DNA of 64,000 nt from an uncultured Pseudomonadota bacterium (GCA_903885375.1 CAISIK010000027.1:1-64000); one strand, 5' to 3'; counted from the stretch's first letter, positions 33,515-50,239 are shown. The notes: generated by a model not told the origin, from the letters alone. Numbers and translations are program-made.

Positions 33515-36100
33515 CTACCAGACGCCGTTGGTGATCTTGAGCGAGTACTCCTGGCAGGAGTAGGTCGTGCTCGTGCGGAACACGTGGATGTAGTAGTCGT
33601 TGCTCAGGTCGTCGCACTCGTTGTATTCGGAGGCGGCGGCGCAGGTGCGGTAGTCGCTCGGGATGGTGTGGGAGCCGTCGCCCACGTCCTCCTGGTAGAC
33701 CTCGTACTCCGAATAGCCGCTGCCCTCGGGGTCGGTGCCGGAGCCGGTGCTGCACTCCAGCTCGCTCGTGGTGCAGCCGCCCTCGTACACCACGAAAGCG
33801 TACTCGCTGCTGCCGGCCGTCAGCTCCACGTGGAAACGGTAGTTGTTGTAGGTGCCGCTGACCGTGTCGGAGGTGGTGATGGAGTACCAGTCGTCGTCGC
33901 TGGCGTCGAGGATGTTGCCGTTGAACTCGATGGTGGCGGTGCCGTCGGCCGCGAGGGTGCTCCAGTCCACCACGGGGTCGGCGCAGCTGTCGCCGTAGGC
34001 GGTGGTGTCCTCGTAGTCATCCACCGGGTCGCACACCTCGGTGCCGACGATGTTGGACACGGCGGAGGTGTTGCCCGAGGCGTCGGTGGCGGTGGCGTAG
34101 AACGAGTAGGAGAGGCCCGCGGTGAGGCCTTCGCTGAAGCTGAACGTGCCCGCGCCGTTGGCGGTGGCGGTGTCGGTCGTGACGCCCGAGCTGCTGGAGA
34201 TGTACAGCGTGACGTCGGCGAAGGGCTCCGTGGAGCCGCTCACGGTGGCGCTCGTTTCGTTCCGGTACGGGTCGACCGAGTTCAGGATCGGCGCGTCGGG
34301 CGCGGTGTAGTCGCCGACCAGCGCGGAGTCGGTGCCGGAGCCGCTGGTGGCCGTGCCATCGCTGGCGGTCACGGTGCAGGCCCAGGTCTCGCCATCGCTT
34401 GTGTAGGAGGACGCCACGGTGTTGCTGGTGACGGCCGAAACCACGCCGTTCACGGTCCACGCGTAGGTGTAGGTGATGGCATCGCCGTCATCGTCGGTGC
34501 TGGCGCCGGTCACGGTGCAGGTGAGGGTGTCGTCGTCTTCCGGATAGTTCGGCGTGACATCCACCGAGGGCGCCGTGGGGGTGCTGTTCTGGATCGTGCG
34601 CGTGCCGGAGATCACGGAGGCGCCGAGGTCGTAGCCGTCCCACGGGAAGATCTCGACGGTGATGTCGTCGCCCTTCACGAAGTACGTGCCCGCGAGGGTG
34701 GGGTCGGTGGCGCCCGCGATGGCGGCCCCGTTGAGGTACCACTGGTAGGTCTCGCCCTCGGCATCGCCGTCGGGGTCGGAGTAGCCGGTGGCGTTCGCGG
34801 TGAGCGTGTCGTTGGTGTAGGCCGTGGCGGGCGTGATCGTGGCGCTGGTGAGCGAGGGCGGGCCGTTGCCGATCGTGGCGCTGTCGGTGCCGGCGGGGCC
34901 GTCGGAGGCGCCGTCGTTCGGCACCACGTACACGGTCCAAATGTCGCCGCGGGAGGTGGCGCTCGCCGGCAGGGGGTTGCTGGTCCGGCCCGAGTCCACG
35001 CCGTTGAGGTACCAGAAGTAGCTGTAGGTGATGGCGTCGCCATCGGCATCGTAGCTGGGGGTCACGACGGAGACGGCGAGCGGATCGCCCGAGCCCGCGG
35101 GGTCGGGGGTGATGGCCACCGTGGGGGCTTCGGGAGGCTCGTTGATGTAGAGCGTGGCGTAGTCGACCGCGGTGATGCCGTCGGTGTCGGTGGCGGTCAC
35201 GGTGATGGTGTGGACACCGTGGCTGAGCGCGTCGTAGGTGAAGTCGGCGGTGCCATCGCTGCCGGCGCCGCGGGTGGAGAAGATGCCGTCGATGTCGCTC
35301 TCCCACACGAGCCCCACGGCATCGGGGGTGTCCTCGGCGTCGCCCACCGTGGCCTCGAAGTACACGACCTCGCCGATGTTGGCGCGGTCGCCCGACTTCG
35401 GCGCGACGAGGGTGAGGGTGGGACGGGAGCCGGCGGCCACCTGCACGGTGGTGGTGTCGGAGCCGGTGCGGCCCGTGGTGTCGGTGACGGTGAGGGTGAG
35501 CTGGTGCTCGCCTTCGCTCAGTGTGGCGGTGCCGGTGGTCTTTCCATCGCTCGACGGGCTCGACGAGAAGGGCAGCGCGCCATCCCTCGACGAAACCCAG
35601 GCCACCGTGAGCTGCTCGGGAAGGTCCTCGCCGTCGGACACCGCGCCCTCGAACAACGTGAGCTGGTTGGAGAAGTACTCGCCGCCGAACTCGGGCGTGA
35701 CGATCTCGGCGATGGGCGCGTCGTTCTTCTGCACGGTGACGTGCACGGTGCCGACCGCCGATTCGCCGTCGGGATTGATCGCGGTGAGCGTGACGGTGGC
35801 ATCGCCGCGGCTGAACACGGTGGCGCATTCGGAAACGCCGTTGGTGTCGAACACGGCGCCTTCGCAGACCGTGCCGCCGTTGATGGCCCAGGTGGCGCTG
35901 ATCGAGGTCAGCGACGTTTCGAAGTTCTCATCGACCACGCGGCCGCGCATGTTGACGGCCACGCCCTCGTTGAGCGAGGCCCCATCGGCCGGCGACTCGA
36001 TCGCCACCACCGGCGGCTTCGTGAATTTGGTGACGCCGTTGGTGTTCTCACACCCAGCGAGGACGAGGACGGTGCTGAGCACGAGGAGGGCGGGTCGGAT
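33515..36100 (-). CDS. Large Ig-like/PKD-type repeat lipoprotein, possible ATC start
   Basis: IRPALLVLSTVLVLAGCENTNG followed by many repeated beta-sandwich-like units (e.g. DGDAITYTYAWTVNGVV, DPDGDAEGETYQWYLNGA). Track start is GTG at 36082. Confidence 0.75.
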   Translation of the reverse strand: MRPALLVLSTVLVLAGCENTNGVTKFTKPPVVAIESPADGASLNEGVAVNMRGRVVDENFETSLTSISATWAINGGTVCEGAVFDTNGVSECATVFSRGDATVTLTAINPDGESAVGTVHVTVQKNDAPIAEIVTPEFGGEYFSNQLTLFEGAVSDGEDLPEQLTVAWVSSRDGALPFSSSPSSDGKTTGTATLSEGEHQLTLTVTDTTGRTGSDTTTVQVAAGSRPTLTLVAPKSGDRANIGEVVYFEATVGDAEDTPDAVGLVWESDIDGIFSTRGAGSDGTADFTYDALSHGVHTITVTATDTDGITAVDYATLYINEPPEAPTVAITPDPAGSGDPLAVSVVTPSYDADGDAITYSYFWYLNGVDSGRTSNPLPASATSRGDIWTVYVVPNDGASDGPAGTDSATIGNGPPSLTSATITPATAYTNDTLTANATGYSDPDGDAEGETYQWYLNGAAIAGATDPTLAGTYFVKGDDITVEIFPWDGYDLGASVISGTRTIQNSTPTAPSVDVTPNYPEDDDTLTCTVTGASTDDDGDAITYTYAWTVNGVVSAVTSNTVASSYTSDGETWACTVTASDGTATSGSGTDSALVGDYTAPDAPILNSVDPYRNETSATVSGSTEPFADVTLYISSSSGVTTDTATANGAGTFSFSEGLTAGLSYSFYATATDASGNTSAVSNIVGTEVCDPVDDYEDTTAYGDSCADPVVDWSTLAADGTATIEFNGNILDASDDDWYSITTSDTVSGTYNNYRFHVELTAGSSEYAFVVYEGGCTTSELECSTGSGTDPEGSGYSEYEVYQEDVGDGSHTIPSDYRTCAAASEYNECDDLSNDYYIHVFRTSTTYSCQEYSLKITNGVW

Positions 36101-36439: not shown

Positions 36440-37525
36440 TCAGCCTCGGTGGCCATGAACGACGCGGGCGCTCTCGCGGAGGTCGGGGCCGGTCACGGTG
36501 CCGGCTCCTTCGGTTCGCAGACCGTGGTCGTCGGGTTGTTCATCACTGCGCTGCCCACGGCGGGCGGCGATTCGTTCGAGGAGGGCCGGCTCGGGCTCGC
36601 GGCGGAGCACCTTCCGGATGATGGCCTCCGGGTTTCCGGCCACGGGGAAGAGCTCGGCGGGGTCGTAGTGGTAGCCCATCGAGTAGAGCCCGGCGCAGAC
36701 CGGATCGAGCGCGCAGGCATCGCACGCGGGTGCCTTGCCGTGGAGGAACTGCTTCTGGAGGACGAAGCCCTTCTTGTCGAGGAAGCGGATGCAGCGCTCC
36801 TCCTCCTTCACGATCTTGCGGGTTTCCGTCGAACTTTCGGCGTACTCGGGCATGTAGCAGAGGGGCACGCGCTCGGCGCGGAAGGTGCGGCCCACCTGGG
36901 TCAGAAAGCGCATGGCCCGGCGCAGCGAGAGCTCGAACTCGCCGAGGCGCGGGATCACGTCCGGGTTGCGCTCCGCCCGGTTCATGTTCGGGTCCATGTT
37001 GTTCCACACGAAGTGGCGCACGTGCGGGTGCCGGCCCACCACCCAGCGCACCGTCTCGTCGAGGTGGTCGCTGTTGTAGGCGTTGATGACGGTGTTGATG
37101 TCGGCGGTGATGCCGAGGGTGCCCACGTGGCCGAGCGCGCTGTCGATGTGGTGGTGGCTCCCCGGCGTCTGCGTGAGGAAGTCGTGCACCGCCTCGCGGC
37201 TGGAATGGAGGCTCAGGTGCACGTGGGTGAGCCCGCTCTCCACCAGCTCACGGAGGAAGGGCAGCTCAGAAATCCGCTGACCGTTCGTGATCATGCGGAT
37301 GAACAGCCCTTTGCTGTGGGCGTACTGCACGGCCGGCAGGAGCAACGGGGCGATGGTGGGCTCGCCGCCGGTGAGGATGATGCCGTCGTAGCCGCGGGCC
37401 ACGAGATCATCGATGGAGTCGCGCATCTCCTGGTCGCTCAGGCTCACCCCGCTGGGCGGGTTGCTGCAGAAGCGGCACGCCTGCTTGCATTCGCGGGTGA
37501 GCTGGAGGTAGCCGAGGTTCGCCAT
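36440..37525 (-). CDS. Radical SAM protein B
   Basis: LTRECKQACRFCSNPPSG (CX3CX2C); GIILTGGEPTIAP; C-term CDACALDPVCAG; start overlaps upstream stop (ATGA). Confidence 0.88.
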   Translation of the reverse strand: MANLGYLQLTRECKQACRFCSNPPSGVSLSDQEMRDSIDDLVARGYDGIILTGGEPTIAPLLLPAVQYAHSKGLFIRMITNGQRISELPFLRELVESGLTHVHLSLHSSREAVHDFLTQTPGSHHHIDSALGHVGTLGITADINTVINAYNSDHLDETVRWVVGRHPHVRHFVWNNMDPNMNRAERNPDVIPRLGEFELSLRRAMRFLTQVGRTFRAERVPLCYMPEYAESSTETRKIVKEEERCIRFLDKKGFVLQKQFLHGKAPACDACALDPVCAGLYSMGYHYDPAELFPVAGNPEAIIRKVLRREPEPALLERIAARRGQRSDEQPDDHGLRTEGAGTVTGPDLRESARVVHGHRG

Positions 37526-39246
37526 CAGCTCCGCCGGCCGGCTTCGGTGTCGATGAAGGGGACGGGGCGGTTGGCCGGCACCGGAATGCGGAAGGGGGGC
37601 GCCTGGGGCGCGGCCCCCGCGGCGAGGCGCGGGTCGGGATCGTCGGCGGGCCAGGCGAGGAGCTGCGCGGCGGCATCGATGGCCCACTCGCCGGTCAGCG
37701 GCTGGAGCTGCACGAAGCCGTGCGCCCGGAGGGACTGCAGATGCTGGCCCCGGCAGGAGCCGGCAACGGGGCAGGCGGAGCAGCGAAGGGAACGCGCGTA
37801 GTAGTGCTCGCCCACGTACTCATCCACGAACGCGTCGATCTGCCAGCGGCCATCGGCGTGGAAGAGCTGCGTGTCGAGGCGACGGGGGGCGCGTTCGAGC
37901 CGGGTTCCCGGCGCGAGGCAGGCGGGCAGGTTCTCCACCCGCACCCGGCGACCGAGCGCGAGGAAGAAGGCGCGCCAGTCGGGGTCGAGCGCCAGTGATT
38001 CGCTGGCCTTCGGCCGCGTGGGCGCGTGGATCACGCAGCGGTCATCGAGCCGATCGGGGGACTGGAGGAGCGCCTCCGCGAAGGTGCGGTCGAGACGGAG
38101 CTCCACCTCCACGCCGAGCGCCAGCGCGGCGTCGAGCTCCTCGAACCCTTCGACGATCACCCGCGAACCGGGCGGGAGCAGGGTGCCGGCGGGGACGGCG
38201 CTGGCGGGAATCCGCAGCGGCCCGATGGGCGCGGGCGGGAGCGCGGCCACGCCGAGCCAGCGCACGCCGGCCGGGGCGTGCGCCGCCAGCGCGAACTCCG
38301 CGCCGATCGCGAACTCGTCGAAGCCGCCTGCGTGCGCGCGGGCCACGTGCCGGTCGAGCGTGGAGCAGAAGGGCTCGATGAAGCAGTGGGGGCAGCGCTT
38401 GGCGTCGCGGCAGTCGATGGGCGTGCCCTCATCGAGGTAGCGGCGGAACTGCACGCGGCGGCCGCCCACCTCGTCGAGCATCTTGTGCGGGTCCTGGATG
38501 AGCTCCTCGAGCCCTTCGAGGTGCTGGACGGGAAAGCGGTTGGTCCAGATGTGGAAACCCGGCACCCGCGCGTAGCGGAAGACGCGCCGCAGCGCGTCGG
38601 CGTGGGCATCGACGTCGTAGAAGAGCTCGGCGCGGTGCTCGAACGCCTCGCCCTGTGGGATCACATGCAGGAGGTCGAACTCCCGGACGCCCACCCGCGA
38701 GCAGAGCGCCACGATGGCCTCGAGGTGCTCCACGTTCTGCTTGTTGATGCAAACGTCGACGTTCACGATCACCCGGCCATCCCGCACCGCGCGGATCATG
38801 GCGCGCATGAGGTTCTCGAACCCGTTCTTCGTCTTCGTGAGGTGGTCGTGCAGCTCGGGGGTGTGCCCGTGGAGCGAGAAGGTGATCTCGTCGAGCCCGG
38901 CGGCCACCGCGCGCAGGAAGAAGGCCCGGTCGGCGAGCTTCTGCCCGTTGGTGACGGTCTGCACCCATCGGTAGCCCTGCGCCTTCGCGTAGGCGACGAC
39001 GTCGTGAAAGCGGGGGTGGATCGTGGCCTCGCCGCCGCTCACCACGAGCCGGCTCGCGTGCTTCTCCTCGCGACCCCGGCGCACCTCCACGCAGATGTCC
39101 TCGAAGCTCATGAAGCGGCCGTCCTGGGCTTCGGCGTCGAGGCAGAAGATGCACTTGCTGTTGCACGCGGCCGTGAGCCGCACCCAGTGCTTGCTCTCGT
39201 TGGCGACCCCTTCGTGGTCGAGCGTGATGGCCTGCGGCGCTTGCAT
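37525..39246 (-). CDS. Radical SAM protein A (long, SPASM-like C-terminus)
   Basis: LTAACNSKCIFCLDAEA; LVVSGGEATIHPRF; CPHCFIEPFC and CSACPVAGSC. Confidence 0.85.
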   Translation of the reverse strand: MQAPQAITLDHEGVANESKHWVRLTAACNSKCIFCLDAEAQDGRFMSFEDICVEVRRGREEKHASRLVVSGGEATIHPRFHDVVAYAKAQGYRWVQTVTNGQKLADRAFFLRAVAAGLDEITFSLHGHTPELHDHLTKTKNGFENLMRAMIRAVRDGRVIVNVDVCINKQNVEHLEAIVALCSRVGVREFDLLHVIPQGEAFEHRAELFYDVDAHADALRRVFRYARVPGFHIWTNRFPVQHLEGLEELIQDPHKMLDEVGGRRVQFRRYLDEGTPIDCRDAKRCPHCFIEPFCSTLDRHVARAHAGGFDEFAIGAEFALAAHAPAGVRWLGVAALPPAPIGPLRIPASAVPAGTLLPPGSRVIVEGFEELDAALALGVEVELRLDRTFAEALLQSPDRLDDRCVIHAPTRPKASESLALDPDWRAFFLALGRRVRVENLPACLAPGTRLERAPRRLDTQLFHADGRWQIDAFVDEYVGEHYYARSLRCSACPVAGSCRGQHLQSLRAHGFVQLQPLTGEWAIDAAAQLLAWPADDPDPRLAAGAAPQAPPFRIPVPANRPVPFIDTEAGRRS

Positions 39247-39286: not shown

Positions 39287-40432
39287 ATGGCTCCAGCATA
39301 TCCCCCTTCGCCCTGCACCTGGCCCGCGGGGCGGGATGACATCGGCCCCTGGCGGGCCCGCCAGCTTCGCCTCGTGGCACGCCGCCTGTTCACCGGCCCC
39401 CACGACCTCCCGCCGTGGGCGGCGGGCGCCTGGGCCTCCATCCGCGAGCCGCTGGCCGCCGTGATGGGGCAGCACACGGGTGTTTTCCTGTCGGCGCTGG
39501 CGCTCCCCACCGTGGGCGCGCCGCTCGCCGCGGGCGACCTCCTCTCCGCCCTGCCGCACCTGCTCCTCGAGCTGGCCCGCCGCGGCGTGATCGGCGAGCA
39601 GGGCCTCTGGTGGGGGGCGCCGGTCTCGCGGCTCGTGAGCCCGGCGCTCGGCGCCGACCGGCGCTTCAACCCGCCGCTCGTGGGCGTGCTGTTCGAGTCC
39701 GGCATCGTCACCCTGCGGCCCACGGAGGAGTGGCGGCTCGCGCCCGAGGCCGTGCCCACGGCGTGGCCGCTCGAACATGGCGGGTGGCTGCTCGGCGCCG
39801 ACACCAACCCGCTCGCCATGAACGAGGCCCACCCCGACAAGTCGGGCAACGCGCTCTCGTTCGGGAGCGTCCCGGTGGCGGAGTGGCTGTCCGCCCTCAA
39901 CACGGCCCGCGGGCGCCTCCACGCGTTCATCCCCGAGCTGGCGCGGGAGCATGCGAACGTGCTCGTGGGCATCGTTCCCGTGGGGCAGGACGACCAGATG
40001 AGCCTGTCGGCGTCGTACCAGGAGGCGCCCGGCCTGGCCTACCTCTCGCTGCACCCCGATTCGCTCACCATGAGCGAGGCCCTCATCCACGAAACCCAGC
40101 ACTCCAAGCTCAACCTCGTGGCCTGGACCGACGCCGTTCTCGAGAACCACGGCGAGCTCTACCGCAGCCCGGTGCGGCCCGACCCGCGGCCGCTTTGGGG
40201 GGTCATGCTCGCCGTGCACGCATTCCTCCCGGTGGCGCGCCTCCACCGCGCGCTCCTCGATGCCAGCGCGCCGGAGGCCAACCCCCGGCGCTACGTCGAG
40301 GTGTGCCGGGTGAACCACGAGGGCATGGAGGTGCTCCGCGCGGCCGCCCGCCCCACCCCCGCCGGCGCCGCCATCCTCGCCGGCATGGATGCGCTGGAGC
40401 GCGCCCTGTGGGAAGTGAGCGGCGCGGCCTGA
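39287..40432 (+). CDS. HEXXH-motif putative peptide-modification protein (TIGR04267-like, aKG-HExxH peptide beta-hydroxylase-like)
   Basis: MSEALIHETQHSKLNLVAWTDAVLENHGELYRSPVRPDPRPLWGVMLAVHAFLPVARLHRAL. Confidence 0.75.
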   Translation: MAPAYPPSPCTWPAGRDDIGPWRARQLRLVARRLFTGPHDLPPWAAGAWASIREPLAAVMGQHTGVFLSALALPTVGAPLAAGDLLSALPHLLLELARRGVIGEQGLWWGAPVSRLVSPALGADRRFNPPLVGVLFESGIVTLRPTEEWRLAPEAVPTAWPLEHGGWLLGADTNPLAMNEAHPDKSGNALSFGSVPVAEWLSALNTARGRLHAFIPELAREHANVLVGIVPVGQDDQMSLSASYQEAPGLAYLSLHPDSLTMSEALIHETQHSKLNLVAWTDAVLENHGELYRSPVRPDPRPLWGVMLAVHAFLPVARLHRALLDASAPEANPRRYVEVCRVNHEGMEVLRAAARPTPAGAAILAGMDALERALWEVSGAA

Positions 40433-40689: not shown

Positions 40690-42312
40690 TCAGCTCTGGC
40701 GCATGCCCGGCGCTTCGCGGCCCACCGCCACCACGTAGTCGTCGTAGCTGCCCTCCCAGGCGCGCGGCCCCTCCGGACCGAGCTCGAGCACGCGGTTGGC
40801 GAGGGCGCGGAGGAACGCACGATCGTGGCTCACGAACACGACGGTGCCGTCGTAGTCGTCGAGCGCCTTCATCAGCGCGCGCTTGGTGCCGAGGTCGAGG
40901 TGGTTGGTGGGCTCGTCGAGCACGAGGAGGTTGGGGGCGTCGTAGAGCATCTTGGCCAGTGCGAGTCGGGACTTCTCGCCGCCGGAGAGCACGTCGATCG
41001 GCTTGTCGATGTCATCACCGGAGAAGCCGAAGGCGCCGGCGAGGCTGCGAATCACGCCCTGGCCCTCGCGGGAGGCGTGGGCCTCGAGCTCCTCGAAGAC
41101 CGTCCTCGTCACGTCGAGCTGCTCCACCTGATGCTGGGCGAAGTACCCGAGCGTCACGCTGGCGCCGATCTTCACCTCGCCGGCGTCGGGCGTGAGCACC
41201 CCGGCGAGCATCTTCAGGAGCGTGGTCTTGCCGGAGCCGTTCTCGCCCATGATGGCCCAGCGTTCGCCGCGGCGCACCATGAGGTCGGCGCCGTTGTGAA
41301 CACGGCGGGTGCCGTAGGATTTGCGGAGGGCGGTGGCGGTGATCACGTCGTTGCCGCTGCGATCGGGGCGCTTGAAGGCGAAGTGGCGCTCCACCATCCG
41401 GCGGGGGGGCTCCACGCGCTCGATCTTCTCGAGCTTGCGGGCGCGGCTCTGAACCTGGCTGGCCTTGGAGGGCTGGGCCTTGAAGCGTTCGATGAACCGG
41501 AGCTCCTTGGCGAGCATCGCCTGCTGGCGCTCGTACTCGGCCTCGCGCTGCGCCGCGTCGAGGGTGCGGGCCTTCTCGTACTGGTCGTAGTTGCCGGTGT
41601 AGGTGCGGATGTGGCCGCCGTCGATCTCCACGATCTTGTCGACCACCCGGTTCATCACGTCGCGATCGTGGCAGGTCATCAGCACCGCGCCCGGGTAGTC
41701 GCGGAGCCAGGTCTCGAGCCAGATGATGCTCTCGATGTCGAGGTAGTTGGTGGGCTCGTCGAGCAGGAGGAGCTCCGGCCGGGCGAGCAGCAAGCGGGCG
41801 AGCTGCACGCGCATGCGCCAGCCGCCGGAGAGCTGGCCCAGCTTGCCGTTCATCTCCTCCTGGCCGAAGCCGAGGCCGGAGAGGATGGTGCGGGCGCGGG
41901 AGTCGAGGTCGTAGCCGCCGCCCGCCTCGAAGGCGGCCTGAACATCGCCGTAGCGCTCGAGGATGCGGTCGTAGTCGGGGTCGTCGACATCGCCCAGCTT
42001 CGCTTCGAGGAGCGCGAGCTCCTCCCCGGCTTCGGCCACCGAGCCGGCGCCCGCCATGGTCTCCGTGAGGACACTCTTGTCGCGCCACTCGGCGAAGTCC
42101 TGGCGGAAGTACCCCACCGTGAGCCGCCGCGGGCGCTCGACCGACCCCTCGTCGGGCCGTTCCTCGCCCAGGATGAGCCGGAAGATCGTGGTCTTGCCCG
42201 AGCCGTTGGGGCCCACGAGGCCCACCTTCTCGCCAGGGTTCACCTTGAACGAAGCATCCACGAACAGCACCTGCTGCCCGTGCTGGCGCGTGACGTTGTT
42301 GAAGTCGACCAA
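40690..42312 (-). CDS. ABC-F family ATP-binding protein
   Basis: Two ABC modules: GLVGPNGSGKTTIFRLILG, LSGGWRMRVQLARLLLARPELLLLDEPTNYLDI; GENGSGKTTLLKMLAG, LSGGEKSRLALAKMLYDAPNLLVLDEPTNHLDL. Confidence 0.93.
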   Translation of the reverse strand: MVDFNNVTRQHGQQVLFVDASFKVNPGEKVGLVGPNGSGKTTIFRLILGEERPDEGSVERPRRLTVGYFRQDFAEWRDKSVLTETMAGAGSVAEAGEELALLEAKLGDVDDPDYDRILERYGDVQAAFEAGGGYDLDSRARTILSGLGFGQEEMNGKLGQLSGGWRMRVQLARLLLARPELLLLDEPTNYLDIESIIWLETWLRDYPGAVLMTCHDRDVMNRVVDKIVEIDGGHIRTYTGNYDQYEKARTLDAAQREAEYERQQAMLAKELRFIERFKAQPSKASQVQSRARKLEKIERVEPPRRMVERHFAFKRPDRSGNDVITATALRKSYGTRRVHNGADLMVRRGERWAIMGENGSGKTTLLKMLAGVLTPDAGEVKIGASVTLGYFAQHQVEQLDVTRTVFEELEAHASREGQGVIRSLAGAFGFSGDDIDKPIDVLSGGEKSRLALAKMLYDAPNLLVLDEPTNHLDLGTKRALMKALDDYDGTVVFVSHDRAFLRALANRVLELGPEGPRAWEGSYDDYVVAVGREAPGMRQS

Positions 42313-42343
42313 GAGCGGCTCCGCGGGGGGGCCGCGGCGTAGC

Positions 42344-42997
42344 TCACGCGCGGGCAGAAGGCGAGGGGAGGTGCTCTCCGCCGCTCATCAGGAGCTTCTC
42401 GTGCCCCACCACGCCGCAGGAAACGAAGAACTTGACCGCTTCTTCCACGCTCATGTCGATGTCGGTGACATCGTGGCGCGAGAGGATGACCGGGTAGCCG
42501 AGGTGGAGGTGGTTGGAGGGGAAGAACACGACGAGCCGGTCATCCCCTTCGAGCGCCGAAGCGTTCTCCTTGGCCACGAACCCGAGCGTCCACCTGCCGA
42601 CCATGGGGTACTCCACGAGGACCACCCGCCGAAAAGGCTGCTTCGACTCCCCCGTGAAGGGCGCGACGATCTGGCGGGAGGCGTTGTAGAGCGACCGCAC
42701 CACGGGGAGGCGCTCGATACCCGACTCGATCGAGGAGATCATCCGCTTGAAGAACAGCTTGTTGGCCAGGATGCCGATGACGAGCACGAGCGCGGCGGTG
42801 ACCACGAGCCCGAGCCCCGGCACGTGGATCGGGCGCGCGAAGAGCACGGACAGCAGCGCATCCGTTCGTTTGCCGAGCACCCCATCCACCGTGCCGAGCA
42901 CGATCGACAGCACCTGGAAGGTGATGAAGAGCGGCAGCAGGGCGAGCAGGCCGGTGAGGAAGTACCGCCGAAGGTTGTCGGTCCATTTCGATCGCAC
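42344..42997 (-). CDS. DUF502 family membrane protein
   Basis: LRRYFLTGLLALLPLFITFQVLSIVLGTVDG; IPGLG-like segment; LVEYPMVGRWTLGFV. Confidence 0.85.
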   Translation of the reverse strand: MRSKWTDNLRRYFLTGLLALLPLFITFQVLSIVLGTVDGVLGKRTDALLSVLFARPIHVPGLGLVVTAALVLVIGILANKLFFKRMISSIESGIERLPVVRSLYNASRQIVAPFTGESKQPFRRVVLVEYPMVGRWTLGFVAKENASALEGDDRLVVFFPSNHLHLGYPVILSRHDVTDIDMSVEEAVKFFVSCGVVGHEKLLMSGGEHLPSPSARA

Positions 42998-43066: not shown

Positions 43067-44134
43067 TCAGTCGGTCGTCTGGACCACGAGGCCGAGCCGG
43101 TCGCACTCTCGCGTGAGCGCGCCGAGCTCGGCCTCGAGCGGTCGACCGGTGAAGGTGATGGTGCGGGCGCCCTCGCCGTGGAGTTTTACGAGGCGCTGGC
43201 GGAGCGTGCGCGAGTTGTCGGTGTCGGCGACGTCGAGGACAGCGTGCGCGGCGCCTGGCGGCTGCGGGCCCGCCGGACGCAGCTCCTCGGTGCCCCAGCG
43301 CGCCACGTAGGCGGCGTCCACGCCGGGACAGATGGGGCGCAACGCGCAGTGGGTGCACGGCGGCGGCCAGAGGGGAGCCGCCGCCGCCTCCACCGCGATC
43401 GCCGAGTAGCGGTCGGGCTGGGCCACGTCGCGGCGGTCGCCGAGGAGCGCGAGCAGGTCGGGCGCCACGCAGGGGGGGAGCCCCACCACGTCGAGCTCCA
43501 CGCCCTCGGCCCGCGCGCGCTCGGCGGCGGCGCGGATCGGCTCGGCGAGCAGCTCCCAGCGCGGCAGGAGCATGCGGGCCTCCCCCACCGCGGCGCCCAC
43601 CTCCCGCCCCACGTGGGCGCGCACCGACCGCGCGCCCAGCGCCCCGGCCACGCCCACCGTCTCCGCGAGGAGCGGCGCCCCCGTGCGGGTGAGCACGGTG
43701 TTCACCCGCAGGCCGAGGCCGGCGGCCACGCTGCGTCGGGCTGAAGCCACCGCCCGCTTGAAGCTGCCGGGCGTGCGGGTGAGCCAGTCGTGCACCGCCG
43801 CCGTGGGCGCGTGCAACGCAAGGGCCACATCCGTGAGGCCCGCCGCCCGTAGGGCCCCCGCCGCACCCGCCGCGGCGAGCACGGACCCGTTGGTCTGCAG
43901 GGCGATGCGTTGGAAACCCGCCTGGCGCGCGAGCCCGAGCAGATCGAGCAGGTCGCTCCGCAGGGTGATCTCCCCGCCGGCGAGCACGACGCCCTCACGG
44001 TGCGGCAGGCGGGCGAGCGCCGCCGCCAGCTCGGGCAGGCTCGCTTCGCCATGCGCCGCGCGGAGCGCCTCCTGGTCGCAGAAGCGGCAGCCCTGGTTGC
44101 AACGGAAGCCCGTCCGGAGGTCGGTCCAGCGCAT
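43067..44134 (-). CDS. Radical SAM protein C
   Basis: FRCNQGCRFCDQEA; VVLAGGEITLRSD; LALHAPTAAVHDWLTRTPGSFKRA; CTHCALRPICPG. Confidence 0.85.
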   Translation of the reverse strand: MRWTDLRTGFRCNQGCRFCDQEALRAAHGEASLPELAAALARLPHREGVVLAGGEITLRSDLLDLLGLARQAGFQRIALQTNGSVLAAAGAAGALRAAGLTDVALALHAPTAAVHDWLTRTPGSFKRAVASARRSVAAGLGLRVNTVLTRTGAPLLAETVGVAGALGARSVRAHVGREVGAAVGEARMLLPRWELLAEPIRAAAERARAEGVELDVVGLPPCVAPDLLALLGDRRDVAQPDRYSAIAVEAAAAPLWPPPCTHCALRPICPGVDAAYVARWGTEELRPAGPQPPGAAHAVLDVADTDNSRTLRQRLVKLHGEGARTITFTGRPLEAELGALTRECDRLGLVVQTTD

Positions 44135-44137
44135 CGG

Positions 44138-45193
44138 CTACTTGATGGCGCTCAGCTCGGCGTCCCCGTGGATGGGGAGGTAGTTCTTCCACACCCCCTC
44201 GCAGACGTTACCGTACCGGCACCCCTCGCACCGGGCTTGCGGCTGCGTCTTCAGGTCGTACCGCTTGCGGTCCTGCCAGTTGAAGCGCGCGCGCCCGTCT
44301 TCGATCTGCGCGATGCCGTCGGGGAAGCCGTCGGCGGTGAGCGTCTTGATCGAGCAGTCGGTGTCCAGGTCGCGGAACTCGCCGATGTACTTGCGGGCGA
44401 GCGCCTTGTTGCCGAGCAGCTCGGGGGGCAGCACGCAGAGCGGGAAGCTGCCCAGCGTGAACGTGCGCTTGTAGTGTAGCTCGTTGAGCAGCACCGCCTT
44501 GAGGACGTAGGGCACGACATCGGTGAGGCGTGGCACGAGGCTCGTTTCTTCCTCGGCGTAGCCCTCGGAGCGCACGAAGTTCGCCCGCACGTCGTCGAGG
44601 CCCAGCTCGAAGAAGAAGCGGAGGATGTTCGGGAGGTAGCGGTAGTTCCAGGCGTTCACCACCACGTTTACCGACACGTTGTCGCGCATGTGCCCCTCCG
44701 CCTTCTTCTGGAGGAGGTACTGGAGGCCGGACTTCTTCTTCTCGAAGTTGCCGGGTACGCGGGTGAGCGCATCCTCCAGCCGCGGGGTGTGGCCGTGCAT
44801 CGAGATCGTCACGCGGGTGAGCCCGGCGTCGATGATGCGGTCCACGAAGTCGTGGCGGAAGAACTTGGTGCCGTTCGTAGCGAGCGCGATCCGGGTGTAG
44901 CCGAGGTCGCGGGCGAGGGTGACCGCCTGGATGATCCACGGGTAGGTGGTGGGCTCGCCGCCCAGAAAGCCGAGCGAGCGCGTGCCGTTGGCGTACCAGC
45001 GGCGGATTTCCGCCTCCATCTCCGGCCAGGGCATGTACCGGCGCATCTCGGTAGCCGGCAACCCATCGAGGCAGAAGACACACTTGTTGTTGCAGATCTT
45101 CCCGACGTTGATCTCGACGTTGCGCCGCGTGTCACGCCAGAGGTCGCTCCCGCCTTCGGTCAGCGGAGCGGGAGCGGGGCTGACCTCGTTCAA
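44138..45193 (-). CDS. Radical SAM protein D
   Basis: VGKICNNKCVFCLDG; LGFLGGEPTTYP; ISMHGHTPRLEDALTRVPGNFEKK; CEGCRYGNVCEG. TTG start overlapping upstream stop (TTGA). Confidence 0.87.
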   Translation of the reverse strand: MNEVSPAPAPLTEGGSDLWRDTRRNVEINVGKICNNKCVFCLDGLPATEMRRYMPWPEMEAEIRRWYANGTRSLGFLGGEPTTYPWIIQAVTLARDLGYTRIALATNGTKFFRHDFVDRIIDAGLTRVTISMHGHTPRLEDALTRVPGNFEKKKSGLQYLLQKKAEGHMRDNVSVNVVVNAWNYRYLPNILRFFFELGLDDVRANFVRSEGYAEEETSLVPRLTDVVPYVLKAVLLNELHYKRTFTLGSFPLCVLPPELLGNKALARKYIGEFRDLDTDCSIKTLTADGFPDGIAQIEDGRARFNWQDRKRYDLKTQPQARCEGCRYGNVCEGVWKNYLPIHGDAELSAIK

Positions 45194-46146
45194 GTGGCCT
45201 CCATGGCGTGGAGTTCGCCGTGACCGTACAGTTCGACATACCGCGCGAAGACCCCGTGACACAAGCGATTCCAGCTACAGGACTCGCATACGGCCGGCTG
45301 GGTGCGCTTTCGGTCGGGCGCCCACGAGTAGATGCCCTCGAGCGAGACCCGGTCGGGGTGGCGGGTCCACTCGAAGGTCACGCGCGGGTTCCAATGGAGA
45401 TCGTTCGCGTACATGCGGGCCTCGCCGAGCACGCAGGCGGGGAGGCCGAAGAACCGCACGATGGAATTGCCCGCGGCCGCGAGGATCTTCGGCACCAGCG
45501 GGCGCACCTCGTCGAGCCGCAGGGTGAGCGCCTCGTAGGCCTGCTCGCCGGCGCCTTCGGGCGTGACGTTGGAGATCACGATCAGCTCGGCGCCCCGCGC
45601 GCTCGCGAGCCGCACCGTCTCCACGATGTGCTCGGCGTTCTCCCGCACGAGCACGGTGTTCACGAAGGTGCGGAAGCCGGGGAAGCTGCGGGCGTTGGCC
45701 ATGGCGGCCGAGAGCCGGTCGAAGCTGCCCTTGCGTCGCGTCTGGGCGTCGTGGACCTCGGCGGTGGGGCCGTGCAGCGAGAACAGCGCCTCGCTCAGCC
45801 AGGGCAGGGCGCGGGCGGCAAACGCGGGGTCGGCGAGCCGGGTGCCGATGGTGCCGATGCTCGTGCGCATGCCGAGCTTTCGGGCGAGCTGGAGGATTTC
45901 GACGAACTGGGGGTGGATCGTGGGCTCGCCGCCCGTGAAGTGCACCCCGTCGATGCCGCGCTCCGCCTGCTCGCGGAGCACCCGAGCCACCCGCCCGAAG
46001 GTGACGGGAAAGGCGGCGTAGTCGGCCATCCGGGTCTCTTCCGAGCAGAAGGTGCAGCGCTCCGGGCAGTGGTAGGTGATGTGGAACTCGAGCCGGCGCA
46101 TGGGCTGGCCGGAGACCGGGTCGATCCAGGGGGGGGGCTCCGTCAT
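45190..46146 (-). CDS. Radical SAM protein E
   Basis: ITYHCPERCTFCSEETR; VHFTGGEPTIHPQF; FSLHGPTAEVHDAQTRRKGSFDRL; CESCSWNRLCHG. Confidence 0.88.
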   Translation of the reverse strand: MTEPPPWIDPVSGQPMRRLEFHITYHCPERCTFCSEETRMADYAAFPVTFGRVARVLREQAERGIDGVHFTGGEPTIHPQFVEILQLARKLGMRTSIGTIGTRLADPAFAARALPWLSEALFSLHGPTAEVHDAQTRRKGSFDRLSAAMANARSFPGFRTFVNTVLVRENAEHIVETVRLASARGAELIVISNVTPEGAGEQAYEALTLRLDEVRPLVPKILAAAGNSIVRFFGLPACVLGEARMYANDLHWNPRVTFEWTRHPDRVSLEGIYSWAPDRKRTQPAVCESCSWNRLCHGVFARYVELYGHGELHAMEAT

Positions 46147-47147
46147 GCTTCCGCCAGCCGTTCGCGGCGCGCGAAGTAGGCGGGGTAGAGCCGGTTGCAC
46201 AGCCGGGTGAGGGCGGCATCGGCGGCGGCGGTGCTCTGCATCACGTGCTCGCCCAGGGTGTCGTGCAGGAAGCCGCCCGCCTCCTGGCCGGCGGCCACCA
46301 GCGCCTCGGCGGCTGGCGGGGCATCGAGGGTACCGAGGGCGAAGCGCTCGCGGAGGTGGTCGAGGTTGCCCGCGAGGATGAGGTTGTTCGCGTAGATTCG
46401 GCGGTCGCTGTCCACCACGAAGCCGGTGTTGTAGAAGGCGACGGGCGCCCGCACGAAGAGGTTGCGCAGGTAGAGGCGCTCGCCGGCCGCCCACGCGCGC
46501 TCGAAGGCGGCGGCGATGGCCGAGAAGGATTGGTTCAAGGCTTCGAGTTGTTCGGGGCGCCAGGGCAGGTAGTAGCCCGGGAGCAGGTTGAACCGGCGAA
46601 CGCCGAGCGAGCGCAGGTACGCGAAGTTGTCGGCGGCCCGCGCGGCCGTGCTCGGCGCGATGGTCTGGGTGACGACGAAGCGCGGCAGACCGAGGAGCCT
46701 CGGCAGGAGCGCCACCACCCGATCGTGCGAGGGCGACCCGCGGCGGAGCCCGTCGTGGTCGCGGGCCACGCCATCGAGGCTCAGCGTGAGTGTGACGCTC
46801 GGGTGGGCGTGCAGCCACGCGATCCAGTGCTCGTCGAGGTGGGTGCCGTTGGTGCTGAGGTACACGTTCACCTCGGACGGCGCGGCGTCCACCGCCGCCT
46901 TCACCACCTCGGGCACCAGCAGCGGCTCGCCGCCGAAGAGCTTGGCGTCTCCCCCGCCGTAACGTTCCACGAAGAGGGCGATGGCGCGCCGGGCGTCGTC
47001 GGCGCCGAGGTCGGGCTCACCGTCCTTCACCGTGGGGCAGTAGGCGCAGCGCAGGTCGCAACGGCGCGTGACCACGAGGATCAGCGCGTTGCGCCACCGT
47101 TCGGCGCGAACGCCGCTACCACTGGCCGTGACTGCCGTGGCTGCCAT
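46143..47147 (-). CDS. Radical SAM protein F
   Basis: VVTRRCDLRCAYCPTVKDGE; KLFGGEPLLVPEVVKAAV; YLSTNGTHLD; LSLDGVARDHDGLR. Likely ATG at 47147 lies inside the precursor repeat. Confidence 0.85.
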   Translation of the reverse strand: MAATAVTASGSGVRAERWRNALILVVTRRCDLRCAYCPTVKDGEPDLGADDARRAIALFVERYGGGDAKLFGGEPLLVPEVVKAAVDAAPSEVNVYLSTNGTHLDEHWIAWLHAHPSVTLTLSLDGVARDHDGLRRGSPSHDRVVALLPRLLGLPRFVVTQTIAPSTAARAADNFAYLRSLGVRRFNLLPGYYLPWRPEQLEALNQSFSAIAAAFERAWAAGERLYLRNLFVRAPVAFYNTGFVVDSDRRIYANNLILAGNLDHLRERFALGTLDAPPAAEALVAAGQEAGGFLHDTLGEHVMQSTAAADAALTRLCNRLYPAYFARRERLAEA

Positions 47148-47583
47148 GCGATCCGTGGCTGCCGTGGGAGCCGTGGGAGCCGTGGCTGCCGTGGGAGCCG
47201 TGGGAGCCGTGGCTGCCGTGTGATCCGTGGCTGCCATGCGATCCGTGGGAGCCGTGGGAGCCGTGGGAGCCGTGCGATCCGTGCGAGCCGTGCGAGCCGT
47301 GGCTGCAATGCTGCGCGAGGAGCACGGCCGTGCTGTCGGGCGCCGTGCCGCTCCGGTCGAGGAACGAGGGGTCGAGCTCCATCTCGCCCGCGGACGCCTG
47401 CAGGAGCAGGAGCGACTGGGCCACAGCGTCGGTCGGCTGGTTGGCCGCTTTGGCTTCCTGAGCCTGGAGGAGCTGGAAGGCCTCCCGCTTGAGCGTGGGG
47501 AACTCCGCCTCCTCGGCGGCCTTCACCCAGTCGGCTCCGGCTTTCTTCCCCGGGAACGGGGCCTTGGGATCGTCTTTGCTCAT
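47116..47583 (-). CDS. His-Xaa-Ser-type repeat precursor (HxsA-like RiPP precursor candidate)
   Basis: 155 aa; leader MSKDDPKAPFPGKKAGADWVKAAEEAEFPTLKREAF... then AQHC-(SHG)x20-QW; ATGA-coupled to the HxsB-like gene. Confidence 0.85.
   Translation of the reverse strand: MSKDDPKAPFPGKKAGADWVKAAEEAEFPTLKREAFQLLQAQEAKAANQPTDAVAQSLLLLQASAGEMELDPSFLDRSGTAPDSTAVLLAQHCSHGSHGSHGSHGSHGSHGSHGSHGSHGSHGSHGSHGSHGSHGSHGSHGSHGSHGSHGSHGQW
47125..47304 (-). repeat. 20 tandem 9-bp units encoding Ser-His-Gly
   Basis: Read directly: gccgtgact gccgtggct gccatgcga ... gccgtgcga gccgtggct on the + strand. Confidence 0.95.
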
Positions 47584-49100
47584 GCCATCACCTCGCCCGA
47601 AGGCGCGTAGGGAGTGGTGCCGGGCCGGGAACGCTGGATGGTCCAGCGGCGGAAGATGCGTTCGATGGAGCCGTCGGTGTCGTTGGCGAGGAGGTGGTAC
47701 AGGTACTGCTGCACCCCGTAGAACTCCTGGCACTTCCGGGAGAGCGGACGCTGCCCGAAGATGTCCCCGTCGAACATGTAGTTGTGCAGCGGCTGCACGC
47801 CGCACGTGGGCTTGTACACGCACGAGTGGCAGGCCGGCAACGAGTCCTGGATGGAGGCGACCGCGAGCGCGCGTACGGTGGGGTGCCGCAGCACCTCATC
47901 GAAGGTGGACGACTCCACGTGCCCCAGCTTGAAGAAGTCGTTGCCCATGTGGGCGGCCATGCGGCCTTCATCGTCGGTGTAGATCGCCCCGTCGAAGTTG
48001 TAGGCGAGCTGCGCGCTGCCGGAGCCGCAGGGCGAGCGGCAGTCGCTGTAGTTCGGGTCGTCAGGGGTGAGCATCTTCGTGAGGAAGATGGAGGCGAGCC
48101 GCTCCTGCACGAACACACCCTGCCGGTTCAGGTCGAGGATGTAGTCCAGCGTGGTGCGGTAGAACTCGAGGAACTCGGGCATCGTGTACCCGATCTGCTT
48201 CCACGTGTTCACCGCGAACCCGAAGGGGTTCAGGGGGCGAAGGTGCAGGCTGCGAATGCCGCGGTTCACGTACTCGTCGACGATCTCGCGCCCCCGGTCG
48301 AGCGAGTACCGGGTCGTCGTCATCAACGCATCCACGTGGAAGAGGTCGGGGTCGAAGCCCCGACGCACCCACTCGCCGTTGAAGCGGTTCATCCAGTGGG
48401 TGACGGTTTCCCAGGAGCTGGACTTCTCCATCCAGCCGCGGTTCTTGTCGTGGAGGTCCTGCGGGCCATCGAGCGAGGTGCATACCATCACGCCGCGGTC
48501 GAGCAGGTAGTTCATCTTCTCGTCGGTCATCAGCGTGAGGTTCGACACCAGCGAGAGGAGGAGCTCCCTGTTCTCGTAGCGGTTCTTCTCGAGCGCGTAG
48601 TCGCAGATGAACTGGATCACGGGGAAGTTGGCCGTGGGCTCGCCGCCCTGGAACTCGAAACCAAGCACGGGCGAGGGCGACCGGAACACGAAGTCCACCA
48701 CCTTCCGCGCGGTTTCGAGGGACATGTCGGTGTCCACCCGGTCCATGTCGGTGCGGCTGGCGTGGCAGTAGCGGCAGGCGTGGTTGCAGCGCAGCGTCGT
48801 GACGACGGCGTGCAGGTGCGGGCCATGCTGGAGGAAGGCCTTCTTCCGCCGCAGCTTGGCCGCGAGCGCATCGATGTCCATGTCGCGCTTGAGGAAGTAC
48901 CGGCGGCGGAGCGACTCGTAGAGCTCCTCCCCCGGCTGCACCTTGCCAGCGATGAACCGGCGGAAGTCCTCCGGGCTGAGGAAGAGGTGCTCGCCCACGT
49001 CGTTGGTGAGCAGCACACGACCATCCACCATGCCGTAGCGGAAGAAGCCGACGGACTCCTTGTCGAAGGTCGCAGGGTCGACGATGAGCGGGGTGTGCAT
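47580..49100 (-). CDS. HxsB-like radical SAM/SPASM maturase
   Basis: TLRCNHACRYCHASRTDMDRVDTDMSLETARKVVDFVFRSPSPVLGFEFQGGEPTANFPVIQF; TSLDGPQDLHDKNRG; SPCGSGSAQLAYNFDGAIYTDDEGRMAAHMGNDFFKLG; CHSCVYKPTCGV. Confidence 0.9.
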   Translation of the reverse strand: MHTPLIVDPATFDKESVGFFRYGMVDGRVLLTNDVGEHLFLSPEDFRRFIAGKVQPGEELYESLRRRYFLKRDMDIDALAAKLRRKKAFLQHGPHLHAVVTTLRCNHACRYCHASRTDMDRVDTDMSLETARKVVDFVFRSPSPVLGFEFQGGEPTANFPVIQFICDYALEKNRYENRELLLSLVSNLTLMTDEKMNYLLDRGVMVCTSLDGPQDLHDKNRGWMEKSSSWETVTHWMNRFNGEWVRRGFDPDLFHVDALMTTTRYSLDRGREIVDEYVNRGIRSLHLRPLNPFGFAVNTWKQIGYTMPEFLEFYRTTLDYILDLNRQGVFVQERLASIFLTKMLTPDDPNYSDCRSPCGSGSAQLAYNFDGAIYTDDEGRMAAHMGNDFFKLGHVESSTFDEVLRHPTVRALAVASIQDSLPACHSCVYKPTCGVQPLHNYMFDGDIFGQRPLSRKCQEFYGVQQYLYHLLANDTDGSIERIFRRWTIQRSRPGTTPYAPSGEVMA

Positions 49101-49330
49101 CACGCCTGCGCCCGCCGCGTGAGGATGGTCTCGAACAGGGCGTGATTGCCCAGCTCGTCGGCCAGCCGTTCCCGCACGCTCTCGCGCACCGGCACGATGT
49201 TCACCAGCCAGTCGGCCTCGGACTCGCCGAGCTCCGACGCCCCCAGCGCGGTGAAGCGGCTCGCCGCCCGGGCCACCGCATCGCCATCGTAGAGCGACTT
49301 GTGGAAGCGGAGCTGCAGCGGCTCAGCCAT
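49100..49330 (-). CDS. Small HxsD-like protein, second copy
   Basis: MAEPLQLRFHKSLYDGDAVARAASRFTALGASELGESEADWLVNIVP; 76 aa. Confidence 0.5.
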   Translation of the reverse strand: MAEPLQLRFHKSLYDGDAVARAASRFTALGASELGESEADWLVNIVPVRESVRERLADELGNHALFETILTRRAQA

Positions 49331-49748
49331 TGGTGGGCTTCTCCCACGGCACCGGGATGTCCAGATCGTCGCTGGCCATCTCTTCGGCATCGAGCTCGGC
49401 GAGCAGCTTGTCGATCGTGGAGGGGCCCTCGGCGGCGAAGAGGGCGCGCGCGAGGATGTACTCGCGGAGGCGGCCGTTGCTCTCGCCGATCTGCTTGCGG
49501 AGCGCCTGGTTCAACAGCTCGTTCGCGAACTGGCCCGACAGCGATTCGAGCTCCTCCGCCGAAGCCGGCCCGCGGGCGCGAAGGGCCACGACCACCTGAC
49601 GGTCGGCGGCGCGGTCGAGAAAGACGTAGGCTTTGTCGATGAACAGGTACGCGGCGCCCATGATGACGTCGAGCGCGTAGATCGACTCATCAATGGTGAA
49701 CCGGACGCGGCGTTCGGAGACTTCGGCCTGGAGGGCGTTGTCGCTCAT
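49323..49748 (-). CDS. HxsD-like protein
   Basis: VRFTIDESIYALDVIMGAAYLFIDKAYVFLDRAADRQVVVALRARGPASAEELESLSGQFANELLNQALRKQI. Confidence 0.7.
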   Translation of the reverse strand: MSDNALQAEVSERRVRFTIDESIYALDVIMGAAYLFIDKAYVFLDRAADRQVVVALRARGPASAEELESLSGQFANELLNQALRKQIGESNGRLREYILARALFAAEGPSTIDKLLAELDAEEMASDDLDIPVPWEKPTNG

Positions 49749-50239
49749 GCGGAGGGGGCTCCCGGCGCGAGGCGGTGGGCCGCCGCAGCCATGGCATCGG
49801 GGTGGGACCACACGCGGTCGGCGTGGGGGCTGAGCTCGCGGATGCGGGCGAGGTCGGAGTTTTCGTTCTCGGCGGCCACGGCGGCCAGCCGACGCAGCGC
49901 GCGGCCGAGGGACTCCTCCATCTCGGCGGTGCCATCGCCGCCATCCATCACGATGAAGTCGAGGAGCTCGGTAGAGGCCGGCCCTCGCGGGGCGCCGTTC
50001 CGAAGGCAGACATCCACGCGCACCTGGCGGCCGGCCGCGTGCGCCATCGTGAGGGTGACGGCGCCCTGGGCGGGCGGGTACACCCGCTGCAGGCGCCACC
50101 CGAGCCCCAATTCCGCGTCCGGACCGAGCGGATGGAAGAGGAACCCGGGATGGAGCGCCTCGGCGGCGAGGGCTGCGCCCGGCGCGGCGGCGGCGATTCC
50201 GAAGAGCGCGAACTGGACGAAGGAGCGCCGGGTGTTCAT
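49745..50239 (-). CDS. Tat-signal exported protein of unknown function, first gene of the Hxs-like operon
   Basis: MNTRRSFVQFALFGIAAAAPGAALAAEA; stop overlaps the start of the HxsD-like gene (ATGA). Confidence 0.7.
   Translation of the reverse strand: MNTRRSFVQFALFGIAAAAPGAALAAEALHPGFLFHPLGPDAELGLGWRLQRVYPPAQGAVTLTMAHAAGRQVRVDVCLRNGAPRGPASTELLDFIVMDGGDGTAEMEESLGRALRRLAAVAAENENSDLARIRELSPHADRVWSHPDAMAAAAHRLAPGAPSA

Follow-up and report, generated by a model that had tools for sequence, protein, structure and literature searches.

Within the His-Xaa-Ser (Hxs) system, the nine-gene radical SAM operon described here likely forms part of an HxsA4-branch cluster for RiPP-type maturation, a reading that we favour as the explanation of the locus as a whole. 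It lies in a 64,000-nucleotide stretch of DNA (the window) from an uncultured Pseudomonadota bacterium with a myxobacterium-like genome. A first-pass annotation had placed nine genes at 43067-50239 on the minus strand, and all nine were recovered at these positions and on this strand, together with all five CX3CX2C motifs that it had listed, each of which is conserved in orthologues (Table 1). Seven of the eight gene junctions fall between -8 and +3 bp and, because neighbouring genes overlap or are at most 3 bp apart there, the nine look like a single translationally coupled operon; the spacing at the eighth junction, between the precursor and rS2, depends on the choice of rS2 start. The five radical SAM enzymes annotated are the correct number for 43067-50239 but too few for the conserved cluster, which, judged by comparison with relatives, extends to 33515 and totals seven through the addition of rS6 and rS7; an HExxH hydroxylase and an Ig-like lipoprotein also belong to it, and all four of these outlying genes had been missed.

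Table 1. Genes of the HxsA4-type cluster in the window and those lying between its two halves
Feature	Position	Strand	Model match or detail
Tat-signal protein, operon head	49745..50239	-	164 aa; ~110-aa domain
HxsD	49323..49748	-	TIGR03976
HxsD-like protein	49100..49330	-	NF038315
HxsB radical SAM/SPASM maturase (CNHACRYC)	47580..49100	-	TIGR03978
Precursor HxsA4, 155 aa	47116..47583	-	NF038313, repeat selection, orthologues
rS2 radical SAM core protein (CDLRCAYC), PapB/HxsB-like	46143..47147, start uncertain	-	
rS3 HxsC-like radical SAM (CPERCTFC), one auxiliary-cluster Cys set	45190..46146	-	
rS4 HxsC4-like radical SAM (CNNKCVFC)	44138..45193	-	
rS5 HxsC-like radical SAM (CNQGCRFC)	43067..44134	-	
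ABC-F ATPase and DUF502 protein, between the two cluster halves	40690..42997	-	
aKG-HExxH-type peptide beta-hydroxylase, predicted (HETQH)	39287..40432, start approximate	+	TIGR04267
rS6 radical SAM (CNSKCIFC) with C-terminal extension	37525..39246	-	
rS7 HxsC-like radical SAM (CKQACRFC)	36440..37525	-	TIGR03977 below cut-off
Predicted lipoprotein, Ig-like domains	33515..36082	-	lipobox LAGC, Big_13, Big_6

The gene set is common to relatives from several families and orders. At three loci (L065, L069 and L072) the rS5 and HExxH genes are directly adjacent, with HExxH, rS6 and rS7 following straight after rS5 and no ABC-F or DUF502 gene in between, and these two genes probably lie outside the cluster proper in the window. 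The HExxH gene adjoins rS5 or rS6 in relatives, and at L053, which comes from another family, rS7, HExxH and rS6 are placed divergently next to the operon. The block of rS6, rS7 and the lipoprotein is retained in relatives, at times on the opposite side of the operon; the lipoprotein gene adjoins rS7 or abuts the Tat gene, the latter at L040, L042, L044, L075 and L077. A 2110-aa repeat lipoprotein encoded upstream of the Tat gene at L068 was considered as a further member and rejected because its matches elsewhere resemble low-complexity Asp-rich repeats. Separately, one cluster (L042, 2256-3767) holds two SHG precursors, of 42 and ~19 units, alongside another gene of the Tat type.

The precursor passed the HxsA4 model (NF038313; 122.6 bits, cut-off 55), while HxsA (TIGR03979) was absent from its NCBIfam matches up to E = 1. 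It consists of a leader of ~93 aa followed by HC(SHG)20QW at the C-terminus, which makes the roughly 20 Ser-His-Gly units of the earlier description exactly 20. These units are encoded by nine different 9-mers and, relative to the commonest of them, carry 27 synonymous and no non-synonymous differences; pooling the arrays of every locus read gives 1177 and 22, against an expectation that ~74% of random changes would be non-synonymous. As the codon variation is almost purely synonymous, the array is kept at the protein level, and the repeat is under strong selection as a protein sequence. The same variation between units rules out a slippage artefact, and the Pfam Collagen match to the array, which contains no Pro, reflects Gly at every third position alone. 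Among precursors the number of units ranges from 9 to more than 40 while the unit sequence stays strict, and a Cys stands just ahead of the first unit in 52 of 54. Written as a strict regular expression, the leader motif fits 41 of these 54, the others being similar by eye, and inspection by eye of precursors of the window's lineage revealed no evident signal peptide.

The affiliation with Hxs proposed in the first-pass annotation is borne out by four models, that for HxsA4 and those for the three genes upstream of it. HxsB, on which the proposal hinged, passed TIGR03978 (510.9 bits, cut-off 370) and has eight Cys conserved across 52 homologues; HxsD passed TIGR03976 (65.6 bits, cut-off 50) and the HxsD-like protein NF038315 (54.8 bits, cut-off 41). 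An AF2 model of HxsD (pLDDT 84) has the order strand-strand-helix-strand-strand-helix, and the best matches in a fold search were RPB11-like chains (E 1.5e-3, TM ~0.44-0.54), a weak match from which the modelled HxsD would weakly resemble RPB11-like dimerisation subunits. The search was also read for the winged-helix fold of an RRE, and no PqqD-like chain was present among the 50 matches listed. That HxsD and the HxsD-like protein might form a heterodimer is a guess on our part. In the Tat-signal protein the twin arginines R4 and R5 are invariant in 25 orthologues. The protein had no Pfam match, and its AF2 model (pLDDT 82.6) gave no match in the PDB better than E 0.096, suggesting that, as modelled, the ~110-aa domain is of no known family or fold.

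Neither HxsC (TIGR03977, cut-off 267.9 bits) nor HxsC4 (NF038332, cut-off 500 bits) was passed by any protein of the cluster, the best scores being 83.5 bits for rS7 and 153.2 bits for rS4, respectively, in agreement with the earlier proposal that HxsC had been replaced. Elsewhere in the phylum, true HxsC was detected at L090 and L093 (378-395 bits) and true HxsC4 (606-631 bits) at L054, L057 and L091, beside precursors ending in Ser-Trp; the models therefore work and the window's cluster truly differs. The place of HxsC is taken by one core enzyme of the PapB/HxsB-like kind together with five separate paralogues that are HxsC-like. The paralogues rS3-rS7 each form a clade of their own that spans families (support 0.957-1.0), and the SAM-cluster Cys are conserved in each radical SAM enzyme, with auxiliary Cys conserved in HxsB and rS3-rS7. 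The best model for rS2 was PapB, below cut-off (79.5 bits, cut-off 340), and its only four conserved Cys are the SAM-cluster motif and one further residue, leaving it without a SPASM cysteine set. The DNA from the precursor stop to where the first conserved strand of rS2 is encoded contains no start codon, so that translation of rS2 probably starts inside the repeat DNA, at ATG 47147 or 47237. Below-cut-off matches were also obtained for rS3 (NF038332, 86.5 bits; TIGR03977, 62.6 bits) and rS5 (NF038332, 87.8 bits), both of which have seven conserved Cys; rS4, whose probable start is a TTG overlapping the rS3 stop, has eight, and rS6 has eleven. In the C-terminal part of rS6 the auxiliary-type Cys pattern occurs again without a CX3CX2C motif, as would result from loss of the SAM site in a second HxsC-like domain.

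The HExxH enzyme passed TIGR04267 (86.6 bits, cut-off 40), and both His of its HETQH motif are conserved. Beta-hydroxylation of His and Asp has been reported for HExxH enzymes, among them ChlH, which hydroxylates both residues in a cyclophane-bearing peptide (PMC12636437). In the lipoprotein, Big_13 and Big_6 scored above cut-off. Its C-terminus in the window is TNGVW, and most orthologues end TNG(V/A/T)W, sharing a terminal Trp with the precursor, and NGL or NGR stands at the end of a few.

Profile searches of 377 genomes of the phylum placed HxsA4 above cut-off in 115, and HxsB was present in 110 of 113 HxsA4 genomes, a co-occurrence for which any significance is inflated by shared ancestry. 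One copy of rS2 was found in each of 43 of the 377 genomes, 41 of them also with HxsB, and it lies mostly on the contig of the precursor, directly after it. The SHG precursor and the HxsB gene are unlinked in other families of this phylum; operons homologous to the window's that lack a repeat peptide were not encountered for this cluster type. Five loci (L046, L047, L049, L050 and L051) have HxsA4 with no HxsB within ~10 kb and HxsB elsewhere in the same genomes. A DNA-pattern scan of named genomes returned, among the matches listed, comparable SHG arrays with HxsB-like genes close by in Elusimicrobia and Patescibacteria, SHG-Trp precursors in Nannocystis, and records titled Myxococcota, Deltaproteobacteria and Polyangia. 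The related arrays in Elusimicrobia and Patescibacteria (L104, L108, L116, L135, L148 and L175) differ in ending RGGWC and have HxsB-like genes and additional radical SAM genes nearby, and some of their precursors seem to carry an N-terminal signal peptide. A short contig titled Rhodobacterales (JAACDH010000489.1, L128) encodes orthologues of rS2, rS3 and rS4, which could reflect transfer or mis-binning. The cluster also occurs in a public record titled Klebsiella pneumoniae (CAMBIK010000147.1; L149 / L065) that appears identical to a contig from a genome in the same genus as the window; the Klebsiella title seems to be an error, from mislabelling or mis-binning of the assembly.

All intact precursors read in the phylum have Trp as their last residue, and the residue before it varies with the presence of rS2. 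All precursors from rS2 clusters (32 distinct) end in Gln-Trp and 60 precursors not beside rS2 end in Ser-Trp. Further Gln-Trp precursors that were read all came from rS2 genomes, and for two Gln-Trp cases, in genomes 78-83% complete, no rS2 was found. In three genomes (G150, G116 and G188) the two kinds coexist, the Gln-Trp form next to rS2 and the Ser-Trp form away from it. HxsB proteins from Gln-Trp clusters form one clade (support 1.0); the position of L053, a locus from another family, inside this clade points to transfer of the unit as a whole. The single clade rules out repeated covariation or convergence as the source of the association and makes Gln-Trp with rS2/rS3 one co-inherited cluster type, which probably arose once and was inherited together. 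Such co-inheritance supports a cognate pair, although it falls short of proof that Gln-Trp is what rS2 acts on.

From these observations we infer the enzymatic steps that follow, their order, the envelope location and the purpose of the pathway. The leader would be recognised by the maturases, with HC(SHG)20QW as a polymeric core. With help from HxsD and the HxsD-like protein, HxsB most likely modifies the Ser-His-Gly array repeatedly, a step that would most likely be the modification common to all HxsA4 systems; our best guess at its chemistry is a cross-link from His to a neighbour inside each three-residue unit. Most likely, the Gln-Trp C-terminus is modified or required by rS2 and rS3, and rS4-rS7 and the HExxH oxygenase may add further changes to the precursor, the latter possibly beta-hydroxylation of His; it is plausible that, as first proposed, the repeat bears several different modifications. 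Handling or display of the product in the cell envelope is suggested by the Tat protein and the lipoprotein. Counting against this maturation pathway are the precursors unlinked from HxsB in some families, the single origin of the link between Gln-Trp and rS2, the two incomplete genomes with Gln-Trp in which no rS2 was found, and the outcome of a search across clusters for a recurrent dedicated transporter or protease, which found none.

The last result speaks for a rival reading, in which the modified poly-(Ser-His-Gly) would never be cut to a peptide and would serve instead as a structural or metal-binding envelope scaffold associated with the Tat protein and the Ig-like lipoprotein. We hold this to be possible, if less probable than the maturation pathway: a variable number of strictly repeated units fits a polymer, and the lipoprotein gene abuts the Tat gene at several loci. 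On the other hand, the likeness to collagen comes down to Gly periodicity in an array without Pro, none of the cluster's genes was recognised as metal-handling, and the precursor of the window's lineage lacks an evident signal peptide. The enzymes might alternatively be divided between substrates, with HxsB and one or two partners alone acting on the repeat and rS5-rS7 and the HExxH enzyme directed at other targets such as the Tat protein or the lipoprotein. The grouping of rS6, rS7 and the lipoprotein in many loci, the detection of rS5 in fewer clusters than rS2/rS3, and the TNGVW end of many lipoprotein orthologues all point this way, yet some lipoprotein orthologues end NGL, NGR or without Trp, and rS6 or rS7 also occurs at SHG loci with no lipoprotein of this family detected in the stretch read; we consider such a division rather unlikely. 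That the several HxsC-like enzymes are redundant or decayed duplicates without separate function is very improbable. Their best-scoring models do put them in one broad HxsC-like group, and the C-terminal part of rS6 has auxiliary-type Cys without CX3CX2C, but the well-supported clade of each enzyme across families and the retained SAM-cluster and auxiliary Cys indicate that each has long been maintained separately.

With canonical Hxs (HxsA/HxsB/HxsC/HxsD, TIGR03976-TIGR03979) the window's cluster shares HxsB and HxsD, and H-G-S within its array is a His-Xaa-Ser repeat; it differs in having seven radical SAM enzymes rather than two, no protein passing HxsC, a precursor without a TIGR03979 match, and an additional HExxH hydroxylase, Tat protein and lipoprotein. 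With the HxsA4/HxsC4 variant (NF038313, NF038332 and NF038315) it has in common HxsA4, the HxsD-like protein and an SHG array ending in Trp, whereas its enzyme nearest to HxsC4 reaches 153 bits against the cut-off of 500. HxsA4 and HxsC4 are already named in NCBIfam, and the window's cluster represents a large variant within the HxsA4 branch, as yet uncharacterised. To our knowledge, seven radical SAM enzymes around one precursor are unusually many for a RiPP-like pathway. An HExxH hydroxylase is likewise found with radical SAM enzymes in the ChlH and PflC/PosC systems; here, by comparison, the genes are separate, the radical SAM partners many and the substrate a polymeric Ser-His-Gly array. 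According to PMC9062424, the radical SAM enzyme of the TvgB poly-cyclopropylglycine pathway acts many times along a short TVGG repeat; with one such enzyme and an unrelated precursor, TvgB is an analogy for repeated action only. The literature searched, which included few subscription papers, contained one relevant discussion of HxsB and HxsC, in that paper, and no characterised Hxs product.

The interest of the cluster lies in the many enzymes gathered on one strict three-residue repeat, each radical SAM enzyme being separately conserved, and in the natural two-way comparison between Gln-Trp with rS2/rS3 and Ser-Trp without them. Together, these features make the role of each enzyme testable singly. 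A more specific reading, which we regard as doubtful, is that the seven radical SAM enzymes and the aKG-HExxH oxygenase form one conserved pathway that turns poly-(Ser-His-Gly)-Gln-Trp into a heavily cross-linked, His-rich envelope polymer, with Gln-Trp as the specific handle for rS2/rS3; if true, it would represent a class of ribosomal biopolymer so far undescribed.
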